Assembly: GCA_030835305.1 (NCBI GenBank)
Contig: JAURPJ010000053.1
Span: forward strand, 1 to 64,000
Origin: Verrucomicrobiota bacterium
Lineage (GTDB): Bacteria; Verrucomicrobiota; Verrucomicrobiia; Verrucomicrobiales; Akkermansiaceae
Direction of reading: 5' to 3'
Length of the DNA: 64,000 nucleotides
Shown: one piece after another, positions 32,411 through 44,912 of the stretch
How the letters are laid out: each line of letters starts with the position of its first letter
Numbering within the stretch: position 1 is the first letter of the stretch
Translations under genes and position numbers: made by a program
Notes under the pieces: generated by a model
Seen by the model: the letters and a program-made list of their open reading frames with translations, nothing else
Told to the model about the DNA's origin: nothing
The model's database searches: none

Positions 32411-33997
32411 CTATTCCAGAACCTCTGGAATGGGAGGAGGCGCCACCGGCCGCACCTTACGACCATTGAGAAGGGCGCCAATCCAAGTGTAACGAACAGC
32501 GTATTCGTAAACCAGTAGCAGAACTGCGGTGACTCCACCAATGACAATGACGATCTTAAAGACCAGAGGGATCTCCCAACTACTAATCAAAATTTGCACC
32601 GCAACCATCACCGGAAGATGTGCCAAATAGAGCCAGTAGGAGGAGTCTGACAAGTATCGTACTTTAGGCCGGCCATCGCTCATAAATCTCCGGAACAACC
32701 CCATCATCCCAACAATCGTCAGCCAGCAAAAACAAGCCGCTCCTAGAGACCCCAAGGTCGGCTCACTCTTCACCCACATTCGTCCCCACCACCAAAACGG
32801 AAGTGACACAACCAACCATGCCCACCACTTCTCGCCCACCCGCTTCTCCCAAAAGCCCCGACCAAAACTGAGGGCTCCAAAGAAGAAGAAAATGCCATAG
32901 TAAGCCAACTTAATCGGCCACGGGAAGATTCCCGCCGAAGTCCCAGGGCCAAACTGTCCGGGCATCAAGCTCTGCAACCACCACGTCAGCGGGATCAGCC
33001 AAAGCAAACATCCCGGCACACTAATCAAAAAATCAGGCAACCTTATTCCAATTCGTTTCGCGATCAGAGCAACCGGAACAAAAACCAAAAGAAGCCACAA
33101 GAGATCGTAAAGGAACCAAAGGTGATGAAAGACGGGCCAAAAGACACCCGCCCAATACCAGGAAGTATCAGTCTCACCGTCCCCTTCGGCGCCTGCTTCT
33201 TCGAGCACCCCTACCAGTCTTTCCCTTGCCAGCTCATGCTCATCCGTTACCTCAATCTGGAAGTGCTCTGCGATTGCTTTCACAAATTCAAAATCAGCCT
33301 TAGCTGCCTGCATCGCCGTCGACCCTTTGGCATCCTTCGCCGAAACATCCGCTCCCGCCTCCAGCAGCACCCCTGCCACATCCTCTCTTCCAAAGAAACA
33401 GGCCGAGATCAAAGCCGTCCCACCATCCATTGCTCGCCCCTCCAAGTCAGCCCCTTGCTCCATTAAAAGTTCTGCCATCTCACGATCACCGGCAATCGCA
33501 GCGAGGTGGAGTAAAGGGGTCCCGTTGCCATTCCTGCTGTTAGGATCTTTCCCATCCTCCAGTAACGCCCGAACCTCTTCCACATCGCCTCGCAAAACTG
33601 CCGCCGGCAAATCTTCCCCCATCTGAGTCGAAAGCTCCACCCGCTCTTTCTTCACCTGCTCGCCCCAGACCCATAGCCCCGCTATCGACGGGAAAACAAT
33701 GATCACTCCCAGAATCAGCGGCACCCCGATCCGCAAAAGCCTTTGCTTTACCAAGCCTCCCATCCCTCTTTTCCGCCACATCATTGCCGTAAGAAATCCG
33801 CTAACCAAAAAGAAGAGCGACATCCGAAATCCGTGAATCCAATCGATAAGTGGCAGCAGAATTTCGGGCGCAGATTTCACATCGACAGCCAGCCATGCCC
33901 CCATCCCGGCGAACGAAAGCACTCCGTGCAACACGAGTCCCAGCAACATCGCCACGCCACGAAGACCGTCTAAAAAGTGATATCTTTCATTTGCCAT
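32411..33997 (-). CDS. acyltransferase-3 membrane protein with inserted ankyrin repeats
   Basis: A 528-residue protein. Residues 1-115 start an acyltransferase-3 (OpgC/OafA-like) fold: 'RYHFLDGLRGVAMLLGLVLH' and 'GFRMSLFFLVSGFLTAM'. Residues ~129-240 are ankyrin repeats ('TPLLHLAAIAGDREMAELLM', 'GTALISACFFGREDVAGVLL'), replacing what is normally a short loop. From ~280 the membrane domain resumes with eight or so segments ('HHLWFLYDLLWLLLVF', 'YLSDSSYWLYLAHLPVMV'). Acyltransferase-3 enzymes O-acylate envelope sugars. The acyltransferase motifs (D-G-L-R-G and H-x-W-F-L) are intact on either side of the insert. It is divergent from the sigma factor gene. Confidence 0.88.
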   Translation of the reverse strand: MANERYHFLDGLRGVAMLLGLVLHGVLSFAGMGAWLAVDVKSAPEILLPLIDWIHGFRMSLFFLVSGFLTAMMWRKRGMGGLVKQRLLRIGVPLILGVIIVFPSIAGLWVWGEQVKKERVELSTQMGEDLPAAVLRGDVEEVRALLEDGKDPNSRNGNGTPLLHLAAIAGDREMAELLMEQGADLEGRAMDGGTALISACFFGREDVAGVLLEAGADVSAKDAKGSTAMQAAKADFEFVKAIAEHFQIEVTDEHELARERLVGVLEEAGAEGDGETDTSWYWAGVFWPVFHHLWFLYDLLWLLLVFVPVALIAKRIGIRLPDFLISVPGCLLWLIPLTWWLQSLMPGQFGPGTSAGIFPWPIKLAYYGIFFFFGALSFGRGFWEKRVGEKWWAWLVVSLPFWWWGRMWVKSEPTLGSLGAACFCWLTIVGMMGLFRRFMSDGRPKVRYLSDSSYWLYLAHLPVMVAVQILISSWEIPLVFKIVIVIGGVTAVLLLVYEYAVRYTWIGALLNGRKVRPVAPPPIPEVLE

Positions 33998-34156
33998 CGG
34001 TAGTTACTTGATCGAGCCAGAGCCCGAAAAGCGAACACTATTTCACTTACGCAATTTTATTTGGCCTGCACCAACTCGCAACTTTAGGGCCCCCACCGCT
34101 TTTTCCTCCAAATTTCTGTTCGCTTTTCCCAAACTGCTGCGATTTCTCATTAAACC

Positions 34157-36109
34157 GTGCCTCAAACGGATCACCAACTCCTCAAACAGCACATGAGCAA
34201 CCCATCCGGGCAAGCTCTGGGCACCCTCGTGGACCGTCACCTTCCTCTCGTCCACTCCGTGGCACGCCGCATCACCGCGAACCCAGAAGCCGCTCGCGAT
34301 ATTTCCCAAATTGTCTTTCTTCGCCTCGTCAAAAAAGCCGCCAAAATCCCCGACACCCTCCCTCTCACAGCCTGGTTCCACCGCGAAACCCATAGCGCGT
34401 CAGTCGATCACGTTCGCTCCGAAGTCCGACGCCAAAAACGCGAACAAACCGCCGCCGATCTCGATGCCATGAAAGCCTCCTCCGAACCCTGGAATCAACT
34501 TGCGCCCGAAATCGATGGCGCCATTGATGAGCTCCCCGAAAACGAGCGCACCCTCGTCCTCCTTCGATTCTACCAAAACAAAACCTACCCGGAAATCGCC
34601 CGCGAACTTGGTATCAATGGCGACGCCGCCCGCATGCGCGCCAACAGGGCCCTCGAGAAGCTGCACGCCATTCTCTCCAAGCGTGGCATCACCACCACCT
34701 CCGCCCTTCTCGCCTCCACTATTCCCACCAACGCGGTCTCCCCGGCACCCGCCAGCCTTGTCAACGCCATCACGAGTTCAATTCAAGCCACCGCTGCCAC
34801 CACCGGAGCAATCGCTTTCGTCAAAGGTCACCTTCTAGCGTTGGTATCTCTCACCATCGGAATCGCAGCCGTCACGACCCAGCAAATTAAGATCAACAAA
34901 CTCAAAGAAAAACAAAGAACTCTTGTTTCCAAGCCTTCTCCAGGCAGCCTTTCCAATCGAAGCTTCACAACCTCCAAATCCCAAAAATTCACCTCCTTTA
35001 GCGAGCCCGATCTCCTCGCCATTTTCGCCAACCCGGACCCCGCCGAGCGACTCCGGCTCCTCCAAGCCTACTCGCTCGACCTCCCGACCGATCGCATTCC
35101 GGAAGCCCTCGAACTTCTTCGCAGCAAGACTCCGGATTGGGATTCGGAATCAAAAATGCTCACCCACCTTCTACTCACCCGCTGGGCCAAGACCAATCCC
35201 AAAGCCGCTTTCGCCTCGCTGGATGAAGCACAATTTTCCCTCGAACGAGGACACTCTCTCAGCATCCTTTCCGCCCTTGCCGCGCTCGATCCCAATCACA
35301 CCGCCGACTGGCTCACCTCCCCCTCCAACACCCGGGCCTACTACCCTCTCGTTGGCCACATTCTCTCCGGAACCATTGCCAAAGAATGGGCTCGCCAAGA
35401 CCCGCAAGCCGCCCTCGATTGGGCCCGCACCCTTCCCGAACAGCAACAAGCCGGAGCCTACTCCGGAGTGCTCGGGACCATCGCCGCGACCGACCCGCAA
35501 AAAGCCGCAGCCCTCGCTCTGACTTTAAAAACAAGCGAAGCACGAAGTCACATTCTCGATGAAATTGCCAAATCATGGGCACGACATTCACCCGAAGAAG
35601 CGCTCACTTGGGCCTCCTCACTCGAACCCGGTGAAAGCAAAACCGCAACCTCTTTTGCCCTGAAATCTTGGTCTGAAACGAATCCAGAAAAGGCGGCAGA
35701 ATACTTCGACAAAAATCCCAACTCCGCCCATCTCGGGCTCATCGCCACCCAGTGGGCGCAAAGGGACCCGGAAAGCGCCGCCCATTGGATTCATTCCAAA
35801 CCAAGATCACCTCAACGCGACGACGCCCTTGCCAAAACCCTCTGGAATTGGACCACGCAGACGCCCAAAGCCGCCACTGCATGGATCGAAGCCCTACCCC
35901 AAGGATCCTCCCGCGATCAGGCTATCGCAGGCCTCACCACCGCCGCTGTTGAATTCGATCCTCGCAGCGCCCTCGAATGGTCGCTAAAAATCTCCGCCTC
36001 ATCGTTTCGCGACGAGTTGTCCCGGCACACCTTCGAAACCTGGAATCGCCGCGATCCCGAAAAAGCCCGTCGATGGGCGGACGAAAATCAATTTCCCCTC
36101 AACAAATAA
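34157..36109 (+). CDS. membrane-spanning ECF sigma factor with C-terminal W-A/D-P repeat domain
   Basis: A 650-residue fusion. Residues 1-180 are an ECF sigma-70: region 2 around 'ARDISQIVFLRLVKKA' and region 4 'ELPENERTLVLLRFYQNKTY' with 'AARMRANRALEKLHAIL'. Residues ~217-240 form one transmembrane segment ('HLLALVSLTIGIAAVTT'), followed by a low-complexity linker. From ~290 to the end there are about nine ~32-residue repeats built on W-A-x-x-D-P-x-x-A-x-x-W-x-x-x-L-P ('WARQDPQAALDWARTLP', 'WAQRDPESAAHWI'). The repeat domain would be periplasmic. Two downstream proteins are built of the same repeats. Translation starts at GTG 34157. There is no separate anti-sigma gene, so the fused part may supply control. 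Confidence 0.88.
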   Translation: MPQTDHQLLKQHMSNPSGQALGTLVDRHLPLVHSVARRITANPEAARDISQIVFLRLVKKAAKIPDTLPLTAWFHRETHSASVDHVRSEVRRQKREQTAADLDAMKASSEPWNQLAPEIDGAIDELPENERTLVLLRFYQNKTYPEIARELGINGDAARMRANRALEKLHAILSKRGITTTSALLASTIPTNAVSPAPASLVNAITSSIQATAATTGAIAFVKGHLLALVSLTIGIAAVTTQQIKINKLKEKQRTLVSKPSPGSLSNRSFTTSKSQKFTSFSEPDLLAIFANPDPAERLRLLQAYSLDLPTDRIPEALELLRSKTPDWDSESKMLTHLLLTRWAKTNPKAAFASLDEAQFSLERGHSLSILSALAALDPNHTADWLTSPSNTRAYYPLVGHILSGTIAKEWARQDPQAALDWARTLPEQQQAGAYSGVLGTIAATDPQKAAALALTLKTSEARSHILDEIAKSWARHSPEEALTWASSLEPGESKTATSFALKSWSETNPEKAAEYFDKNPNSAHLGLIATQWAQRDPESAAHWIHSKPRSPQRDDALAKTLWNWTTQTPKAATAWIEALPQGSSRDQAIAGLTTAAVEFDPRSALEWSLKISASSFRDELSRHTFETWNRRDPEKARRWADENQFPLNK

Positions 36110-36123
36110 ACCAAGGTTACGCC

Positions 36124-39100
36124 ATGAAACGCTTTCTTGCCGGATTCATTCTCATCACTTTTTCCATTTTGGGTGTCTGGCTTCTTCCCGCCCGCGATCG
36201 AAAGAACACCTCTGGTGACCAGTCAGCCCCTCTCCCCGCCAAAGTGGGCCATCCCTCCTTTCTCAGCCCTCACTTCAGGCCTATCGTCCTCCACCACAAC
36301 CGCCTCTTCGTCGCCAACACCCCGGCCGATACCGTTGACGTCTTTGACGCAAATTCAAACAAACTCCTCACGCGCATCCCCGTTGGCACCGACCCCATCA
36401 GCATCGCGATCCGACCCGACGGCCTCGAGGCCTGGGTCAGCAACCACATCTCGGATTCCATCAGCGTCATCGACACCGATCCCGGGAGCCCAACGCATCT
36501 CCACGTCATCGACACCGTGCAAGACATGGATCTCGAAAAACGTTCCACCAATTTCGACGAGCCCGTCGGCATCGCCTTTGGCAGCAATCAAAAAGCCTAC
36601 GTCGCCCTCTCGTCAGAAAACAAAATCGCAGTCATCGACGTCGCCTCCCGTAAGGTCACCAGGCACCTCTCCATCCCCGCCCAGGATCCCCGCGCCATCA
36701 CCGTCCGAAATGGAAAACTCTACGTTGTCCCCTTCGAATCCAACAACAAGACCCAGCTCTCCGGCGGGTCTAAAATTGATGGCGACCTCGTCACCTTCAA
36801 CGCCCACGAACACTCCATCGCCCATAACAACGTCCTCTCACTTGGACACGTCGTCGACATCGTCAAACACCCCGACGTCCCCGACAAAGACCTCTTCGTT
36901 TTCGACACCGAAACCGATCAACTCATCGAAACCGTCGAGACCCTTGGCACGCTTCTTTACGGCCTCGCTGTCGACTCAAAAGGCTCCGTCTTCGTCGCCC
37001 AAACCGACGCACGCAATCACATCAATGGACGCTCCGGAACGAAAAAACACGGACTCGCCCAACTCCAAAACCGTGCCTTTCTCAACCAAATCACCCGGGT
37101 CGATTTTGAAAAAGATACCGCCAAGGATTCAAGCATCATCAACCTCGAACCTCTTCCCTCCGAAAAGATTATTCCACAGGAAGCCTTCGCCACGCCCTTC
37201 GCCATCGAGATCAGTCCCGACGACAAAACTCTCATCGCCACCGCCGCCAGCTCGGACAAGGTTTTTACCGTCGACACCGCCAGCGGCAAAGTCATGGGTC
37301 ACGTCAGAGTGGGTTCCGTCCCCCGGGGCATCGCCCTCCGATCCAGCGAAAACGGCACACCCTCTCAAGCCTGGATTCTCAATGCCGTGGAAAACTCCGT
37401 GTCACTCGTCGATCTCTCCAATCTGCAAAAACCTGTCGTAAAATCCACCACCCGGCTCGACGACCCCACCCCCGCCCCCTTCAAGCGCGGCCGCATCGCC
37501 TTCAATAACGCCAACGCCTCCAGCACCCGAACCTTCTCCTGTGCCAGCTGCCACCCGGATGGACACACCGACCAACTTCTCTGGGTTCTCAAAACACCCA
37601 TTGTTTCCGGTGGCAACCAAATCCAGCCTCGCTCCACCATGCCGCTTCGCGGACTTCGTGACACCGAGCCCTTCCACTGGGACGGCATTCCCGGCGATCC
37701 CTATGGCGGAAACAACAGTGCCAATGTCCGCGGTCACATCCCACCAAATGTCGACGGCTCCAGCCCCGATAATGCCCTTCGCCATGTCGTCGACGGCGCT
37801 CTAAAATCCACCATGGCCCTCGGCGATACCGCCACCGGCAGGGGCGACCTGCTCGACCGGAACGAGCGCTACTACATGACACGCTTTCTCCTCGCCATCC
37901 CCTATCCTCCTGCCCAAAAGCGAGCCTACACCAACGTCCTCTCAAAGCGCGCCGAAGACGGGTTCAAACTGTTCAACATTAAAGGTAACCACGAAGGCAA
38001 ACCACAACCCAACGTGTGCGGCGACTGCCACCGCATGCCTTTCCTCGTTTCAACCAACACCCCGGGCACCGGAATGGATGCACCAACCTGGCGGGGAGCC
38101 TACGATCGCTTCCTCATCCTTCCACAAGGCCGGCTCAACATCATCAACTTCGATTTTTACCGCAAAATCGCCGAAAAAGGGATTCCCGAGAAGGACCTCT
38201 GGCGCGTTTCCTGGCTAAGCAAACCCCGCTTCGACCCCGTCTGGGAAATGGTCCTGGAAGGCAGCACCGGCTACTCCGGCACCTTCGCCAGACAGCTCAC
38301 CCTCAACCGGAAAACCGCCAGACAAGACCTCACCCGGGACCTCCTCCCCGCCCTCGAGGCCTCCGCCTCCGAGGAAGCTGTCGTCCTGCAAGTCGATGCC
38401 CTCCTCGATGGACAAGATCTCACCCTGCAATTTCAAAACAGTCGCTACATCCAAATCGACGGGACCCGTCAGGGATTCACTCGCGACCAATTAATCTCTC
38501 TCGCACAAGAGGGGAAATTCCTCGGAACCTTCACCGCCCGCCACGGAGCCCACTCCGGTTTCTTCATCCCTCAACCCGCCCTCTGGACCCTCAGCCCCAT
38601 TCACGAGCAAAGCGGCCGACAGCAATTCCCGATTCTCGCAGACGGAAACCAAACCATGACCGTGAATGCCCGGCACGTCACCGAAGACGCCCATGTCATC
38701 ATCAACGGTCGCCGTGCCCAAGCTTCGATCAAGAAAGGCACGGCTGAAACCATTGCCATCACCCTCGACTCACTTCCCCCCAACGGCCTTCACTTTCTTC
38801 AAATCCAGAACGCCCAGGGACTCTTCAGTAACGACTTCATTTTCCACGTTGCCGAAAAAGCAGAAGACGTCAGAACCTCTCCCGGAAGCGACCCCGACCA
38901 ACTCCGAAACCTTCTCGAAAGATCCATCGCCAGCGGCAGTCTCACGCGGGTCAAAAGGCAGCTCCAACTCGGCGCTTCCGTCAATCGACTCCATCAGGAA
39001 AATGGCATGACGCCTCTCGCGAGCGCATCTCTTCATGGACATCCGAAAATTGTTACCCTTCTTCTCGAGCACAAGGCAGACATCAAAAAGCCCAACCGCG

Positions 39101-39363
39101 ATGGTAACACCGCCCTCCACACCGCCGCCTTCATGTGTCGCAGCGGAATCGTCAAAACCCTTCTCGAAAACGGAGCCCCCGCCACCCTGCGCAACCATCG
39201 ACGTGAATTGCTCATCGATGTCGTCTCCGGGGACTGGAGTAGACCTCTTGGTGACCTCTATCGATTTCTAAATACCTTCGTCGCCAACAAAACCAAGCTC
39301 GAGGAATTACCCGCCCAACGGAAAGAGATGACCACCCAACTTCGTAATCTTACGGGCGAGTAG
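36124..39363 (+). CDS. beta-propeller / di-heme cytochrome c / ankyrin fusion protein
   Basis: A 1079-residue exported protein starting at ATG 36124, 14 bp after the sigma factor gene. After a signal anchor ('FLAGFILITFSILGVWLLPA') comes a YVTN-like propeller to about residue 450 ('NRLFVANTPADTVDVFDANS', 'GLEAWVSNHISDSISVIDTD'). A cytochrome domain follows with two heme sites, C-A-S-C-H (about 473) and C-G-D-C-H (about 632). A beta-rich part comes next, then ankyrin repeats at ~943-1035 ('MTPLASASLHGHPKIVTLLL', 'NTALHTAAFMCRSGIVKTLL'). Propeller plus di-heme resembles MauG-like or surface redox proteins; the ankyrin tail is unusual. The tight spacing implies an operon with the sigma factor. 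Confidence 0.87.
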   Translation: MKRFLAGFILITFSILGVWLLPARDRKNTSGDQSAPLPAKVGHPSFLSPHFRPIVLHHNRLFVANTPADTVDVFDANSNKLLTRIPVGTDPISIAIRPDGLEAWVSNHISDSISVIDTDPGSPTHLHVIDTVQDMDLEKRSTNFDEPVGIAFGSNQKAYVALSSENKIAVIDVASRKVTRHLSIPAQDPRAITVRNGKLYVVPFESNNKTQLSGGSKIDGDLVTFNAHEHSIAHNNVLSLGHVVDIVKHPDVPDKDLFVFDTETDQLIETVETLGTLLYGLAVDSKGSVFVAQTDARNHINGRSGTKKHGLAQLQNRAFLNQITRVDFEKDTAKDSSIINLEPLPSEKIIPQEAFATPFAIEISPDDKTLIATAASSDKVFTVDTASGKVMGHVRVGSVPRGIALRSSENGTPSQAWILNAVENSVSLVDLSNLQKPVVKSTTRLDDPTPAPFKRGRIAFNNANASSTRTFSCASCHPDGHTDQLLWVLKTPIVSGGNQIQPRSTMPLRGLRDTEPFHWDGIPGDPYGGNNSANVRGHIPPNVDGSSPDNALRHVVDGALKSTMALGDTATGRGDLLDRNERYYMTRFLLAIPYPPAQKRAYTNVLSKRAEDGFKLFNIKGNHEGKPQPNVCGDCHRMPFLVSTNTPGTGMDAPTWRGAYDRFLILPQGRLNIINFDFYRKIAEKGIPEKDLWRVSWLSKPRFDPVWEMVLEGSTGYSGTFARQLTLNRKTARQDLTRDLLPALEASASEEAVVLQVDALLDGQDLTLQFQNSRYIQIDGTRQGFTRDQLISLAQEGKFLGTFTARHGAHSGFFIPQPALWTLSPIHEQSGRQQFPILADGNQTMTVNARHVTEDAHVIINGRRAQASIKKGTAETIAITLDSLPPNGLHFLQIQNAQGLFSNDFIFHVAEKAEDVRTSPGSDPDQLRNLLERSIASGSLTRVKRQLQLGASVNRLHQENGMTPLASASLHGHPKIVTLLLEHKADIKKPNRDGNTALHTAAFMCRSGIVKTLLENGAPATLRNHRRELLIDVVSGDWSRPLGDLYRFLNTFVANKTKLEELPAQRKEMTTQLRNLTGE

Positions 39364-39403
39364 TCTTCCGCTTTTCAGCTCAAAACCCCATCTTTCCCAA
39401 ACC

Positions 39404-40582
39404 GTGAAAAAAAACATGCTTCACCATCTCATTTGGGCACTCGTGGCCATCACCACTTTTGTGGTGGGTTCAAAAATCAATTCCTCCAATCCTGAGCAAT
39501 CTGCCGGAGCAAAAGAGGGCGGGATAAACAGCCCGGGCAATCGTCGAGCCGAGACTTCGGGCGAAGACGGCTCAACCCGACGCGCGAAGTCAACCCGTTC
39601 CAAATCACGAACCACATCTGAATCGAAAGAGAATGCCCCTCTCACTGATGAAGGCATTGCCGAACTCGGAGCCATCTTCAAAGAAGGCAACCTCATCGAG
39701 CGTAGGCTCGCCTTTGCGGAAATGCTGAAACAACTCACTCCGGAAAATGCCCGGCAAATGCGCGAGCAGATCGCCCACATGCCACAAGACTCTGCCGAAT
39801 TCCGCGAGTTCCATTATGCCTGGGGGGCCATTGCCGGAGATGAAGCCATCATACACGGGAAGGACACTCCCAAGCGCGATATGGCCGCCGCCCTCGCGGG
39901 CTGGGCTTCCGAAGATCCTCAATCAGCCATGGCCTACTTCGAAAGCCTGACACCCGGGGAACAAAACGACGGCGCCCTCATGAAGTGGGGAGCCGCCTTC
40001 GGACTCGCCGACGCCGACCCGCAACTCGCCGCCGAATTCGCCATCGAACGTTCACAAAACGGTGACAAGGACGCCGGTAAAATGATCCACATCGCCGCCG
40101 CTGCCGCTATGAAATTCGGGGACCGCGAAGAGGTCACTCAATGGGCCAACAACATCCCAGAGGGAGACCTGCAGAACACCGCCTTTCAAAAAATTGCCGG
40201 AGACTTCGCCAAGGAGAATCCAGCCGAGGCGGTCGATTGGGCCACCAGCCTTCCCGAAGGCGAAGGCAAAAATCACGCCGTTGGAACTTCTTTCCACCAC
40301 TGGGCCAACCGCGACCCCAGGGAGGCGGCCAGTGCCATCAATTCACTCCCCATCAATCAGCAGGATGCCGCGACTTATGGTTACGCCACCAGCGTCGTCC
40401 ACAAGGAACCTGCTGCCGGAGTCCAGTGGGCCGCCAACATCAAGGATCCGAATGATCGCACCAATGCCATGGTCGATACGGGCCGTGTCTTTTACCGCAG
40501 AGACCGCGAAGCCGCGCAGGAATGGCTTGCAAACTCCAACCTTCCAGAAGAAGCAATCCAGCGAATCACCGGCGAAAAGTAG
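39404..40582 (+). CDS. membrane-anchored W-A/D-P repeat protein, paralogue 1
   Basis: A 392-residue protein starting at GTG 39404 (ATG 39416 is also possible). One N-terminal membrane segment ('HLIWALVAITTFVVGSK') is followed by a charged, disordered linker to ~residue 85, then helical repeats: 'GWASEDPQSAMAYFESLTPG', 'QWANNIPEGDLQNTAFQKIA', 'NPAEAVDWATSLPEGEG', 'WANRDPREAASAINSLP'. These match the C-terminal repeats of the sigma factor two genes upstream. The gene after next (41066-42262) encodes a close paralogue along the full length. Function unknown; probably part of the same envelope module. Confidence 0.82.
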   Translation: MKKNMLHHLIWALVAITTFVVGSKINSSNPEQSAGAKEGGINSPGNRRAETSGEDGSTRRAKSTRSKSRTTSESKENAPLTDEGIAELGAIFKEGNLIERRLAFAEMLKQLTPENARQMREQIAHMPQDSAEFREFHYAWGAIAGDEAIIHGKDTPKRDMAAALAGWASEDPQSAMAYFESLTPGEQNDGALMKWGAAFGLADADPQLAAEFAIERSQNGDKDAGKMIHIAAAAAMKFGDREEVTQWANNIPEGDLQNTAFQKIAGDFAKENPAEAVDWATSLPEGEGKNHAVGTSFHHWANRDPREAASAINSLPINQQDAATYGYATSVVHKEPAAGVQWAANIKDPNDRTNAMVDTGRVFYRRDREAAQEWLANSNLPEEAIQRITGEK

Positions 40583-40629
40583 AACCTCCAAGACCTCTTT
40601 GCAGGTCACATATGAGCTAAAGTCCCACA

Positions 40630-40961
40630 ATGATGAAAGTGAGAATTTTTGTTCCCACCCTTTTCGCGGGCTTCATCCTCGTTTCGTGTGATCAACCACA
40701 ATCCACACCGTTCCCCCAAGCCACTGCTCCAAAGCAAAGTGCGACAAACAAGACGCCCCTAGAGAATGGGAGGCATAGGCCAAGTGGGCTGACGAGAAGC
40801 ATCCCACCGGCGATGGCCAGGGACATCGGCCTGATGTTGGCTCGGATGAACGGGTATACGCTCTCGGCACCCAACTCGGATTTTCAGACAGCCAAGGACA
40901 CGGACCTGACATCAAATCCGACGAGTGGCGCCGCGCCGTGGAGAACAAGTTGCAGCTCTAA
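40630..40961 (+). pseudogene. decayed lipoprotein with QGHxPDxxSDE repeats
   Basis: ATG 40630 gives a lipoprotein start ('FVPTLFAGFILVSC', lipidated Cys). After about residue 45 the frame loses sense and the proper continuation is in another frame: 'EWEA', TAG (probably once Tyr), 'AKWADEKHPTGDGQGHRPDV', 'GSDERVYALGTQLGF', 'SDSQGHGPDIKSDEWRRAVE', 'NKLQL', stop at 40961. The Q-G-H-x-P-D-x-x-S-D-E motif occurs twice. One frameshift and one stop mark it as a pseudogene. It lies between the two paralogous repeat proteins. Confidence 0.6.
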
Positions 40962-40980
40962 TTCAATAAGAGCTGATAAG

Positions 40981-41006
40981 GAATAAGAGCCATGTCGCTC
41001 TTATTC
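40981..41006. terminator. 10-bp perfect hairpin between the paralogues
   Basis: GAATAAGAGC and GCTCTTATTC flank a 6-nt loop. The 3' arm is T-rich but no long T run follows, so it is a weak terminator or a transcript-stabilising hairpin. Confidence 0.5.
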
Positions 41007-41065
41007 GCCTGAAGAAAGAAAGAAGCTGGTTTCCACGTTTAGAAGCTGGATCCGTTTCTTTTGCC

Positions 41066-42262
41066 ATGAAAAAATCTTACCTTGTTCACGTGTTATGGGC
41101 TCTGGTTGCTGTTGCTGCCTTTGCCATCGGTTCCAAAAAAGCCGGCCCGGCGACCAGTGATGAATCTGCAAGCGCAGAGAGAGGAAGCGCCTCGGGCAGC
41201 AGCCTTTCCAGCCGATCAGTCCGAACCAATTCCAGCCGCCCCGGAAATTCGCGCTCCGTCAACCGGAGTCGTGACATCACCGCGACAGGAGAAACCGGAA
41301 GCGGCACACTCTCCGAAAACGAAATCCGCCAAATCGGAATCGAGCTCAAAGCAGCCAAAACGCCCCTCGAACGCCGGGAACTTTTCAATCAAATCCTCGC
41401 CAACCTGACGCCCGAGAATGCCAAACTCATGCGCGAGCAAATCATTCATCTCGACTCGAACAGCTCCGAGTTCCGTGACTTCCATTATCAGTGGGGTGCC
41501 ATCGCCGGCAAGGAAGCAGTCCTCAATGGAGCTGAAACTCCCGAGCGGGACATGGCGACCACCCTCGCGGGTTGGACAGCTTCGGACCCCGACGCCGCGC
41601 TTGCCTACTTCAACAGCCTTGAGCCCGATGCTCAAAACGGCAGCGGGATGAAGTGGGGAGCCGTCTACGGATTGATCGATGCCGATCCCAACCTTGCCGT
41701 TCGCTTCGCCATGGACCGACAGGAAGCGGGCGATCGCGAAGCTTCCCGTCTCATGGATCTCGTCACCCGCCAGGTCATTAAGAGCGGAAATCCCGCCGAA
41801 GCGGCCAACTGGGCCACCGCCCTGCCCTCCGGAGAAATGCAGGATGCCGCCATCCGCCGGGTTGCCGAGGAATACGCTGAAGATGATCCGATCGCCGCGC
41901 TCGATTGGGCCAACACCCTTCCGCAAGGAAACGGCAAAAACCGGGCTATGCGCGAATCCTTTTCCGAATGGGCACGAGCGAATCCACAAGCCGCCGCTGA
42001 TCGACTTGGCTCAATGAGCGCATCACCTGAACGCGACTCAGCCACTTATGGCTACGCCACCCGTGTCGCCTGGGAAAATCCCGCCGCGGCAGTCGAGTGG
42101 GCCAATACCATTTCCGATGAAGGCACCCGCGCCAACGCCCTCATGGAAACCGGTCGGGCCTACTTCCGCAAGGAACCTGATGCCGCCAAACAATGGCTCT
42201 CCAACAGCGGCCTCAACGAAGAGCAACAAAAGCGCGTCACCTCCCGCGACCGACGTCGCTAG
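41066..42262 (+). CDS. membrane-anchored W-A/D-P repeat protein, paralogue 2
   Basis: A 398-residue paralogue of the protein at 39404-40582, with the same order: membrane anchor ('VLWALVAVAAFAIGSKK'), Ser/Arg-rich linker to ~90, then 'LTPENAKLMREQI', 'FRDFHYQWGAIAGKEA', 'GWTASDPDAALAYFNSLEPD', 'NWATALPSGEMQDAAIRRVA', 'DWANTLPQGNGKNRAM' and a closing 'AKQWLSNSGLNEEQQKRV'. It shares the repeat type with the sigma factor. The two copies are clearly a duplication that has diverged, with a dead lipoprotein gene between them. Function unknown. Confidence 0.82.
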   Translation: MKKSYLVHVLWALVAVAAFAIGSKKAGPATSDESASAERGSASGSSLSSRSVRTNSSRPGNSRSVNRSRDITATGETGSGTLSENEIRQIGIELKAAKTPLERRELFNQILANLTPENAKLMREQIIHLDSNSSEFRDFHYQWGAIAGKEAVLNGAETPERDMATTLAGWTASDPDAALAYFNSLEPDAQNGSGMKWGAVYGLIDADPNLAVRFAMDRQEAGDREASRLMDLVTRQVIKSGNPAEAANWATALPSGEMQDAAIRRVAEEYAEDDPIAALDWANTLPQGNGKNRAMRESFSEWARANPQAAADRLGSMSASPERDSATYGYATRVAWENPAAAVEWANTISDEGTRANALMETGRAYFRKEPDAAKQWLSNSGLNEEQQKRVTSRDRRR

Positions 42263-42290: not shown

Positions 42291-44912
42291 TCAAGCTCCC
42301 TGGACCGGGAGTGATCTCTCCAAGACTTCTGCGGCTGCGTTGAGGGAGTCAACCAACTCGGCCACTTCATTTTGGGAATCAGATTTCCGCGTCCCCAAGC
42401 GATCAAAAGCAGCCTCGACCTTGGGCAGCGGAAAGCACGACAAGGCGGCGGTGAGCCGATGCCTCAGCTTTGCAGACACTTCTTCGATTTGGGCGCTGTG
42501 AGCGGAAGTGAGTTCGGCCGCCGCCTCCCGAAATTCCTTTGCCATCGACTTGGCCAATCTCGCCGCCTTTTCAGGACTACCGGGGTGGACACTCTTCAAC
42601 TCCGATGAAAAATCAGGCTCAAGACTCCTCTTCAAAATCGTAAGGACGGCCTCCTTGGTATACGGCTTGAGGAGCACACTCCCGATCCCCGCCTCCTGCG
42701 CGCGACCGTCATGTGCTGCCGAAACCTGGGCGGTCACCAAAACCATGGGAACCCCCGGCATCTCTTCCCGTAATTTTCTGGCCAAGGCCGTACCCGTGAT
42801 ATCGGGCAACTGTAAATCGAGCATGATCAAATCGAAACTCTCACTACGGGAAAGCTCAATCGCTTCCGCCCCCGTCCCGGCATAGCTCATCTCAAACCCC
42901 GTTCCGTCGAGAGTAAACTCCATCACCTCCTGATTCGAAATAGTATCCTCAACGTAGAGAATTTTGCGACCTTTCCCAAAACCCCCGCCATCTCCCGCAG
43001 CCGTCGCCTCTTTCTTACTTTGATCGTCAGCCAATTCATAGGGCAAGCAGAACCGAAAAACCGCGCCTCCATCGGGAGGACATTCCAAAGTCAGGGTGCC
43101 CTTTTGTTGTTCGATCATTTCACGCGAAACTGAGAGTCCAAGTCCGGCACCTCCACCACTTCCATCACCCCGACTGTAAAACGGCTCGAAAATATCATCA
43201 CACTCGCTCCCAGCAATTCCCGGGCCAGAATCGGAAACTGTTCCTTCCAAAGTCCCGCGGGCATACTTCAACACAAGCTTTACAAAGCCTTCCTCCGTAA
43301 ATTTGAGGGCATTGTTCAAAAGATTGTTCAGGACCTGTCGCAAACGAACGGCGTCACCCCGCACCCGCAATACCCCAGGAATTTCAACGACCATTTTCAG
43401 ATTTTTGCTCATCGCCAGAGGCTTCAGGGCGTCGGTCACCTCCCTCGCCAACTCCGCTGCATCAAACTCAGACACTTCATAGCGCACTGCACCTTCATGC
43501 AACCGGGTGTAGTCCAACGCGGTATTCAAAAGAGTCATCAAGTTGCTTGTCGATGACTGAAGAGACGCCAAAATCGGCTTCTGCCTGGGTGTGGGGTCGT
43601 TTGCTTCAAGTGCCCGGACAAGACCGACGACCGCATTCATGGGTGTCCGTATTTCGTGACTCATCACCGCCAAAAAATGCTCCTTTGCCGCCTCCGCCTC
43701 CTCGGCACTCTCGCGCGCGCGATGCAGTTCTTCGACATGCTGGCGAACCTTCGTTGCCATTTCTTCAAAACGCCTGATTGCCACGCCGATCTCATCGCGA
43801 CGAGGATCACTCATAATCACGACCCCATCGTCGCGTCCGTCAAAACGCCTCAACGCTTTTGTCAAACGCCCGAGCCTCCGGGAAAAAAACCAGGCAATTA
43901 CCAAGGCCACAATTGCTCCGCCCAAGACAGCCAGAACGGTAGTCCACAAACCGCGCACTCCCGCCTTTTCCAACACCGGCCGCCAGGTTTCATCCGCCAA
44001 CGCAACCCGAAGATCCAACTGCCTCCCAGGCCACAGCCTCGTGGAAACTTCCCGGGTTGCATAAATCTCCCCACGCCAATGTCCCTTATTCACCGTCACG
44101 TCGTGTCCCAGATCAGAAGCAAAAACAGCCTCTTCATTTGGATTCATGAGAAAATCCCCCTTGCCATCCGAAAGATAAATATTCGCATCAGGAGAGGCTA
44201 AATTCCTCAACTCCGAAAACAACAAGCGCATGTCAGCATTAATAATTAACATCACGCGAGGACCACCTTCAGGCCCGATCCCGATCGCCGAACGCACCGT
44301 TGGAAGCTGTGGATCGGTCAACCTGCCAAACTCACGGTTCAAATTGATTTCCGAAAGATAAACTCCTTCTCCGGGCATCTTCGTAGCCTCCTTAAAATAA
44401 TCTCTCCCGCCCTTCTCCTGGAGTTGATCCCCCGGCGTGACGACAACCAGCCCGTCCCGGCGGTCAAGCCGGACGATCTCACGACCCTCTCCCGGCCCGC
44501 CAATCTCCAGCAATCGCATCTGCGTGTAGGTTGGCTTACCCGCAAACACCGCCCGGAAACTCTCTTCCACAAGCCCACGCCATCTGCGCTCATCAATCGT
44601 CCCCCGCGTCTTAAGAAACTCATCAAGAACCGGGGATTGCGAAATCGAACGGGTATCCTGCCCCAGTGTCTCAAACCATGTCTCGAGACGGATCTCAATC
44701 ACCCCCGCGTCCTGCGAAACCCTATCCTGCAAAGCTCCCACCAGCTGATGCCGGGTATCTCGGTAGGACAACCAACCCGACACCCCCACTGCAGCGCCAA
44801 GCACAATAGACAGGACGGCCGCAAATCGCACCGCAAACGACTTTCTCCAATTAACTTTAAGCTGATCAACTGATTTCTCCTCCACCGCCGCCCATCCTGC
44901 ACACTTGTCCAC
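42291..44912 (-). CDS. hybrid sensor histidine kinase with receiver and HPt-like tail
   Basis: An 873-residue protein starting at GTG 44912. Residues ~28-48 and ~320-344 are membrane segments enclosing a ~270-residue dCache-like sensor region ('GVYLSEINLNREFGRLTD'). Then come HAMP, HisKA with phospho-acceptor His419 ('MSHEIRTPMN'), HATPase_c ('NNLLNNALKFTEEG', 'DSGPGI', 'GGGAGLGLSVSREMI') and a receiver domain with Asp699 ('LIMLDLQLPDITG'). The last ~100 residues form a helical HPt-like domain with 'LRHRLTAALS', whose His could be the phosphotransfer site. It is convergent with the repeat proteins; its sensed signal is unknown. Confidence 0.9.
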   Translation of the reverse strand: MDKCAGWAAVEEKSVDQLKVNWRKSFAVRFAAVLSIVLGAAVGVSGWLSYRDTRHQLVGALQDRVSQDAGVIEIRLETWFETLGQDTRSISQSPVLDEFLKTRGTIDERRWRGLVEESFRAVFAGKPTYTQMRLLEIGGPGEGREIVRLDRRDGLVVVTPGDQLQEKGGRDYFKEATKMPGEGVYLSEINLNREFGRLTDPQLPTVRSAIGIGPEGGPRVMLIINADMRLLFSELRNLASPDANIYLSDGKGDFLMNPNEEAVFASDLGHDVTVNKGHWRGEIYATREVSTRLWPGRQLDLRVALADETWRPVLEKAGVRGLWTTVLAVLGGAIVALVIAWFFSRRLGRLTKALRRFDGRDDGVVIMSDPRRDEIGVAIRRFEEMATKVRQHVEELHRARESAEEAEAAKEHFLAVMSHEIRTPMNAVVGLVRALEANDPTPRQKPILASLQSSTSNLMTLLNTALDYTRLHEGAVRYEVSEFDAAELAREVTDALKPLAMSKNLKMVVEIPGVLRVRGDAVRLRQVLNNLLNNALKFTEEGFVKLVLKYARGTLEGTVSDSGPGIAGSECDDIFEPFYSRGDGSGGGAGLGLSVSREMIEQQKGTLTLECPPDGGAVFRFCLPYELADDQSKKEATAAGDGGGFGKGRKILYVEDTISNQEVMEFTLDGTGFEMSYAGTGAEAIELSRSESFDLIMLDLQLPDITGTALARKLREEMPGVPMVLVTAQVSAAHDGRAQEAGIGSVLLKPYTKEAVLTILKRSLEPDFSSELKSVHPGSPEKAARLAKSMAKEFREAAAELTSAHSAQIEEVSAKLRHRLTAALSCFPLPKVEAAFDRLGTRKSDSQNEVAELVDSLNAAAEVLERSLPVQGA

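Follow-up and report, generated by a model that had tools for sequence, protein, structure and literature searches.

A predicted membrane-tethered sigma factor with an α-solenoid tail and a look-alike anchored partner: a possible sigma counterpart of co-component systems in Verrucomicrobiota

Introduction

How might a sigma factor be controlled when its own gene continues into a membrane segment and a long repeat tail, and when genes downstream encode anchored proteins built from the same repeats? The question is raised by a locus in a genome of the Akkermansiaceae (contig JAURPJ010000053.1, positions 1 to 64,000; this whole stretch of 64,000 nucleotides is referred to as the window). An initial annotation described an extracytoplasmic function (ECF) sigma factor that runs past region 4 into one transmembrane segment and about nine repeats, with two paralogous anchored repeat proteins in the same locus and no anti-sigma gene. 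It proposed that the repeat domain is a fused periplasmic sensor, and that the separate repeat proteins interact with it or descend from it.

Our preferred answer, to which we assign a probability of roughly 60%, is that the locus encodes an ECF sigma factor tethered to the membrane, whose input domain is a periplasmic solenoid, together with an N-terminally anchored look-alike partner, and that the two form the sigma counterpart of co-component systems.

Domain architecture of the sigma factor and its neighbours

Five open reading frames (ORFs) follow one another on the same strand with short gaps between 34157 and 42262, encoding the sigma factor, a propeller protein (prop), the repeat protein rep1, a lipoprotein-like protein of 118 residues, and the repeat protein rep2. 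The sigma ORF scores 81.9 bits against the NCBIfam model TIGR02937 (cut-off 42.9). It contains a single hydrophobic segment, recognised by hydropathy alone and located after region 4. The AlphaFold model was built with 18 sequences and has a mean predicted local distance difference test (pLDDT) score of 75.6; the helix at the hydrophobic segment (residues 231–256) is of low confidence. Beyond it, residues 283–643 are modelled as about 11 helix pairs, with block pLDDT mostly 80–93. The repeat unit is about 32 residues long, and a WAxxDP-like signature is found in most of the pairs, so that the original count of about nine repeats is a fair one.

The tail has no Pfam match up to an E-value of 1, including to TPR, anti-sigma and zinc-finger families. 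When the alignment of the sigma protein was searched against PDB sequences, sigma-factor structures matched the first 181 positions, and the one further hit was to an antibody at chance level. The repeat domain is fused, as proposed at the outset, and is probably periplasmic.

The two repeat proteins are indeed paralogues, with 44% mutual identity and a shared plan of an N-terminal hydrophobic segment, a low-complexity linker and WAxxDP repeats. Few residues precede the hydrophobic segment in rep1, rep2 and the partners listed from other loci, and no cytoplasmic sigma-binding domain was matched in rep1 or rep2. A DUF4880 match in one of 16 rep proteins (E-value 0.18) is at chance level. As initially stated, no anti-sigma gene was recognised: anti-sigma families had no match among eight window proteins in Pfam or four in NCBIfam.

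Recurrent pairing of sigma genes and anchored partners

Relatives were sought in 144 related genomes, 27 of them from the genus of the window, with at most eight candidates scored per genome; a phylum-wide search covered 288 genomes with at most four scored in each. With so few candidates per genome, both samples lean towards close relatives. Further tailed sigma genes among the candidates of the first search were fetched, and 80 sigma ORFs of at least 300 residues were kept as a wider sample. All 80 have a segment with a hydropathy score (KD19) of at least 1.3, a lenient threshold, within 120 residues after the sigma core. In a graph of phmmer matches (E-value 0.001), one component unites 53 of the tails, 37 partners, all 67 other repeat ORFs, and 6 of 511 other ORFs.

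After 15 rows of the window clade and three rows with less than 700 nucleotides of downstream sequence were left out, 36 sigma genes with repeat tails remained, 30 of which have an adjacent N-anchored partner from the same component; among the 26 genes with other tails, this holds for one (locus L172). Fisher's test gives P 2e-10, which overstates the independence of the rows since these are paralogues and relatives. The start of the partner overlaps the stop of the sigma gene by four bases in 20 of the 30 pairs, and the remainder lie at −1 to +20. As a background, among the remaining ORFs of these loci with 300 residues or more, 22 of 233 precede an N-anchored ORF of whatever kind that is 300–700 residues long. 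The tree distances also agree: across 31 pairs, the correlation with the partner is 0.364 for the sigma core and 0.525 for the tail, and none of 2000 within-genome shuffles reached either value. The adjacency with free repeat proteins expected from the initial annotation is thus recurrent, both in the genus and at other sigma genes in other genera and families, and to treat the pairing as a property of the window locus alone would be too narrow.

A separate set of tailed sigma factors has helical tails that we label LTxxQ-like, with no repeat partner (L096, L097, L147, L154, L155, L158, L160 and L165). These may represent another type of membrane-bound sigma factor.

Pairs with other ectodomains

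In the phylum-wide search, such tailed sigma factors were found in further families, and 14 of 26 tailed sigma ORFs have an adjacent N-anchored ORF. Five of the 20 loci gave no sigma row (L260, L262, L264, L266, L269), probably because ORF picking keeps the longest overlapping frame. Tails match their own partners at L270 (repeat type; 1e-35), L258 (7e-39), L240 (4e-11), L265 (4.5e-9) and L239 (2e-7), and in the window's own family at L153 (3e-17). Tail and partner thus resemble each other also where their domains are unrelated to the WAxxDP component and did not join it. Using ectodomain classes that we assigned from the comparisons, tail and partner fall into one class in 6 of the 14 phylum-wide pairs, where shuffling gives a mean of 1.72 and reaches 6 in 10 of 100000 trials. 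The figure is 7 of 21 when all non-repeat adjacent pairs of the first sample are added, including its six unmatched pairs (L172, L155, L173, L167, L195, L168), for which the shuffle mean is 1.23 and none of 100000 shuffles reaches the observed value. Half of the 14 mismatched pairs have TonB_C-type tails (L238, L241–L244, L261, L267), and the partners of these seven all share a single different domain type. The TonB_C assignment comes from Pfam for one of the seven (L241), from a pattern for four more, and by eye for two. A further ECF sigma factor, at L226, also has a tail that Pfam confirms as TonB_C.

We put forward, tentatively and as somewhat short of an even chance, that Verrucomicrobiota contain a broad class of sigma co-component systems. 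In these, a hetero-complex of the sigma ectodomain and an adjacently encoded anchored protein, often with a homologous ectodomain, would be the sensor; ectodomain types would have been swapped, jointly for the two genes in some lineages; and the genus of the window would have added a feedback decoy, a free relative of the sensor domain that the sigma factor switches on.

The locus in related genomes

An intact full-length fusion of sigma factor and repeat tail is present in 12 of the 27 genus genomes, counting that of the window, and in three genomes of another family. The genus genomes are 61–97% complete, so its absence from the other 15 does not prove that it is missing. The gene directly after the fusion encodes a repeat protein in six genomes (G026, G003, G008, G004, G002, G017). 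In another six, the order is fusion, prop and rep1 (the window genome, G013, G019, G025, G016 and G014); prop of G014 is broken into three ORFs, and rep1 of G013 extends off its contig. The named loci of the close relatives come from metagenome-assembled genomes (MAGs) labelled Akkermansiaceae, Verrucomicrobiales or other Verrucomicrobiota, with one labelled merely 'Bacterium'. The sigma gene is under purifying selection, with a nonsynonymous rate (dN) of 0.062 and a synonymous rate (dS) of 0.52 in one genus pair, and 0.025 and 0.147 in a second.

The acyltransferase-ankyrin gene diverges from the sigma gene in the window, with an intergenic gap of about 160 bases, and in several other genus loci, and lies downstream of it in G119. 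In one more distant MAG (L219) a prop-like gene is found divergent beside the fusion, and in another (L217) the acyltransferase-ankyrin gene comes after it; these surroundings showed no repeat gene. Separately, a sigma ORF lies beside pieces resembling the sigma tail and rep proteins at L225:1039-5666, on the same contig as L095, in a MAG labelled Akkermansia muciniphila. This may be a mosaic or a misassembly.

A promoter-like motif and its predicted targets

Alignment of 13 upstream regions from the genus revealed a conserved block consisting of TGTTCGCTT and CGAT with a spacing of 14 bases. Within the window, the sites before the sigma and acyltransferase genes are the sole matches at 0–1 mismatch, and lie at equal distance from the two starts. 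The motif ends 13–14 positions ahead of the conserved sigma start, and all 12 intact genus orthologues carry it with at most one mismatch (10 exactly); a similar site, at 0 to 2 mismatches, is present at five fusions from other families. Exact sites number 25 across the 27 genomes of the genus, whereas the reversed pattern gives 3. Ten of these precede the sigma gene, five the acyltransferase-ankyrin gene and four the free X proteins, which are free homologues of the sigma tail; two are at a secreted-looking hydrolase gene and three are intragenic. The remaining one lies 7 nucleotides before a secreted-looking ORF with no Pfam match (L291:1-1494), in the genome G021, which has no sigma gene at the locus.

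Outside the genus, in genomes where the fusion was not found, the motif is missing at 0–1 mismatch from all 12 X genes (one of these genomes, G110, has pieces of sigma and tail arranged as a mosaic on a different contig, L095), from all 10 prop rows (L128 gave none, as ORF picking keeps the longest overlapping frame) and from all 8 acyltransferase genes. It is likewise missing from 249 of 249 control genes at 0–1 mismatch and present in one of them at two mismatches. Four of seven genus genomes that lack an intact fusion at the locus had no site before the acyltransferase gene (G021, G020, G006, G007). The presence of the motif largely tracks the presence of this sigma gene, and the pattern of sites suggests that the sigma factor is active and controls its own operon and the divergent gene. 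The sites before free X genes lie 52–64 nucleotides upstream in G025, G016, G013 and G014. In these four genomes the sigma factor would control a free relative of its own tail, which points to feedback on the sensor. The gene neighbours of the free X proteins showed no common theme.

The hydrolase is found in seven of the 27 genus genomes, at eight loci. Its motif is exact in the window genome, where motif and beginning of the longest ORF overlap, and in G017, where it lies 106 nucleotides upstream. One of two fragments in G008 has a site with one mismatch, and no site was found in G002, G025, G019 or G014. Another possible target is a PQQ-type propeller protein (L072:3841-5208); in G008, G004 and G017, the motif occurs with one mismatch where its gene begins.

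More generally, of the 64 tailed sigma genes outside the window clade, 31 have TGT[CT]CG in the 80 nucleotides that precede them, mostly 37–52 nucleotides ahead of the first core codon, as against 9 of 224 control genes. Self-control may therefore be common in the class, and these frequencies suggest that it is class-wide, with varied specificity.

Fold and ancestry of the repeats

AlphaFold predicts for rep1 the same kind of fold as for the sigma tail and does so more confidently: the mean pLDDT is 80.9, and 253 of the 392 residues score at least 90. Foldseek found no match to rep1 in the PDB with an E-value below 0.001, and structural alignment returned generic solenoids, the best with a Z-score of 10.5 and a root mean square deviation of 16.0 over 306 residues. 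The rep alignment gave weak and mostly antibody-like noise against PDB sequences (best E-value 0.0025). Judged by Pfam, the repeats would not belong to an ordinary TPR or HEAT family. Like the sigma tail, rep1 and rep2 have no Pfam match up to an E-value of 1; set against this, the fold is a generic solenoid, and across 16 rep proteins there are weak matches to TPR_19 in six (best E-value 0.025) and to DUF2709 in three (best E-value 0.0002). A profile of the repeat unit matched 111 of 1181 ORFs from the fetched loci, which had been picked as relatives; reversing these ORFs left no match, so the repeats are more than a chance pattern.

In a tree of 46 ectodomains, several of whose rows are long branches flagged by the tree tool, the window tail and its orthologues fall within the clade of free X proteins (support 98/93). 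Fusions of another family group with the X protein of G122 (100/99), so that fusion either arose twice or was undone. Five pairs come from the family of the window: their tails group together (100/96), their partners do likewise (100/99), and the joining of these two groups is moderately supported (92/80). The idea that the separate repeat proteins of the window descend from the sigma tail is not supported and is rejected on this tree, in which the tail is in the X clade and rep1 and rep2 are elsewhere.

Proposed mechanism and alternatives

We propose that the sigma domain is held at the membrane, that the tail lies outside as input domain, and that the partner is oriented in the membrane in the same way. 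The ectodomains of tail and partner would bind each other, and this binding would decide whether the sigma domain stays held or is released, most likely by two-step proteolysis. Topology, tail–partner binding and proteolytic release are steps that we infer. The released sigma factor would activate its own operon, consisting of sigma, prop, rep1 and probably rep2, together with the acyltransferase-ankyrin gene and perhaps the secreted-looking hydrolase, and, where present, the free homologue of its tail, which would feed back on the sensor.

A number of observations weigh against this proposal. The charges behind the hydrophobic segment of the sigma protein (QQIKINKLKEKQR) run counter to the positive-inside rule. 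A partner is absent at six of the 36 sigma genes with repeat tails (L203, L200, L161, L151, L196, L202), core and partner have corresponding nearest neighbours in 10 of the 31 pairs, and a tail directly matches its own partner in 19 of 63 adjacent pairs, the others being linked via family members or unlinked. In f9, the partners of the seven TonB_C-type tails are of a different anchored domain. No repeat gene was seen beside those fusions from outside the family that have visible downstream sequence (G119, G133, L216, L219). In G021 (L104) the gene order is that of the window, with prop 96% and rep1 98% identical, and of the deleted sigma gene there remains a 3' piece containing stop codons; the locus showed no motif site. 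The sigma gene of G005 is internally deleted. Both genomes keep a rep1-type gene, prop and the acyltransferase gene, and G009, G006 and G020 hold rep and acyltransferase genes with no sigma gene at the locus (G020 on short contigs). Three of seven genus genomes without an intact fusion (G009, G005, G023) keep a one-mismatch site before the acyltransferase gene.

An alternative is that the partner and rep proteins are regulon members with a structural role in the envelope, the tail having borrowed a scaffold repeat common in Verrucomicrobiales and making no contact with the partner. We judge this unlikely, though more probable than the other alternatives. It fits the survival of rep genes where the sigma gene is lost, and also the dispersal of the repeat family: the genome of the window gives 15 matches to the sigma tail and 19 to rep1 (E-value at most 0.01, several per gene), spread over about ten places beyond the window locus, and around four contigs with such repeats no sigma-like ORF was found in 18–19 kb. 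With WAxxDP repeats so dispersed, repeat sharing alone would prove little. It fits the tree as well, where rep1 and rep2 are not the nearest relatives of the tail and group apart from it, together with two of the dispersed paralogues from this genome (100/98). What speaks against a purely structural role is the adjacency at 30 of 36 against 1 of 26 loci with its four-base overlaps, the matched ectodomains across several unrelated domain classes, and a tail–partner correlation that exceeds the within-genome shuffles. The link between sigma factor and repeats is supported by recurrent adjacency, and weakened by repeat dispersal and by the sigma loss in two relatives.

It is improbable that the tail is a fused anti-sigma domain, inhibiting the sigma domain from the membrane in the manner of IutY or of ECF52/53, with the free proteins unrelated to control; membrane-fused ECF sigma factors are a known kind (PMC8999054), but no anti-sigma or zinc-finger domain was matched in the tail, and the solenoid sits beyond the hydrophobic segment. 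That the sigma gene is a decaying passenger of a conserved rep-prop-acyltransferase unit, as its loss in G021, its truncation in G005 and the sigma-less loci of G009, G006 and G020 might imply, is very improbable in view of dN/dS ratios of about 0.12 and 0.17 and of 12 intact orthologues with a conserved upstream motif.

Relation to known systems

ECF sigma factors with extensions and with membrane fusions are already known. In PMC8999054, IutY (ECF243), ECF48, ECF52 and ECF53 are described as an ECF core with a C-terminal transmembrane extension, IutY as being freed from its membrane-fused form by proteolysis, and ECF42 as having a C-terminal TPR extension thought to bind another protein. The present protein resembles the first four groups in having a transmembrane segment, here by hydropathy, after region 4. 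It differs from these in that no anti-sigma or zinc-finger domain was matched in the tail and a look-alike partner is encoded next to it or near it. With ECF42 it shares a C-terminal helical-repeat extension, but here a transmembrane segment intervenes and no TPR family was matched in the sigma protein. Unlike the canonical ECF/anti-sigma pair, the partners here have no matched cytoplasmic sigma-binding domain.

The closest parallel is with co-component systems such as TcpP-TcpH and ToxR-ToxS, in which, as in the sampled pairs (by hydropathy), a transmembrane regulator is encoded beside a single-pass partner with an ectodomain. The regulator of a co-component system is a winged-helix DNA binder, whereas here it is a sigma factor, so that the system would work like a co-component system without being classed as one. 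Here, moreover, the ectodomains of regulator and partner often belong to the same family, and in the window prop lies between sigma and rep1. TcpH, a single-pass protein with a periplasmic domain, shields the transmembrane regulator TcpP from two-step intramembrane proteolysis (PMC11323476); protection by the partner in the present system would be an analogy to this.

The arrangement of a sigma factor with a look-alike partner was not found in searches of an open-licence library, and groups of the main ECF classification may overlap with it. If the proposal is true, it adds an architecture of paired look-alike ectodomains to the known modes of ECF control, and suggests a control route for many verrucomicrobial sigma factors that have no recognised adjacent anti-sigma gene. 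It would also point to a little-studied route of signalling from envelope to gene. The upstream motif and the short list of targets make the window system directly testable.

Features of the window

The features are collected in Table 1. The initial observation is confirmed; it omitted the 118-residue lipoprotein-like ORF and the divergent, motif-bearing acyltransferase-ankyrin gene.

Table 1 Features of the sigma locus in the window, with positions, strand and basis
Feature	Position	Strand	Basis and details
Acyltransferase (Acyl_transf_3) with inserted ankyrin repeats	32411..33997	-	Pfam; divergent neighbour of sigma, predicted target
Promoter-like motif TGTTCGCTT-N14-CGAT just upstream of acyltransferase start	34011..34037	-	Exact
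Promoter-like motif TGTTCGCTT-N14-CGAT just upstream of sigma start	34117..34143	+	Exact
Predicted membrane-tethered ECF sigma factor with α-solenoid tail	34157..36109	+	650 aa, GTG start; domain matches, hydropathy, AlphaFold model, orthologues
Sigma region 2	34226..34429	+	Pfam Sigma70_r2 PF04542, residues 24-91, above cut-off
Sigma region 4	34508..34663	+	Pfam r4 PF08281, residues 118-169, above cut-off
Predicted transmembrane segment	34811..34879	+	Residues 219-241; hydrophobic segment at about 218-240, KD19 1.89
α-Solenoid of WAxxDP repeats	35003..36085	+	Residues 283-643, AlphaFold model
prop: YncE-like propeller / two CxxCH / ankyrin protein	36124..39363	+	N-terminal hydrophobic segment
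rep1: N-anchored α-solenoid repeat protein	39404..40582	+	Hydropathy, repeats, AlphaFold
ORF of 118 aa separating rep1 from rep2; its start (LVSC) resembles that of a lipoprotein	40630..40986	+	Homologue in G021
rep2: rep1 paralogue	41066..42262	+	N-terminal hydrophobic segment, repeats

The ATG of prop at 36124 is 14 bp past the sigma stop, as was first described. Its propeller (YncE-like) and ankyrin parts are matched above cut-off, and its candidate cytochrome part shows two CxxCH motifs and a sub-threshold match to CCP_MauG. Convergent with rep2, at 42291-44912 on the minus strand, the window encodes a hybrid histidine kinase with a receiver domain, which has a homologue in the same place in G021 and G010.

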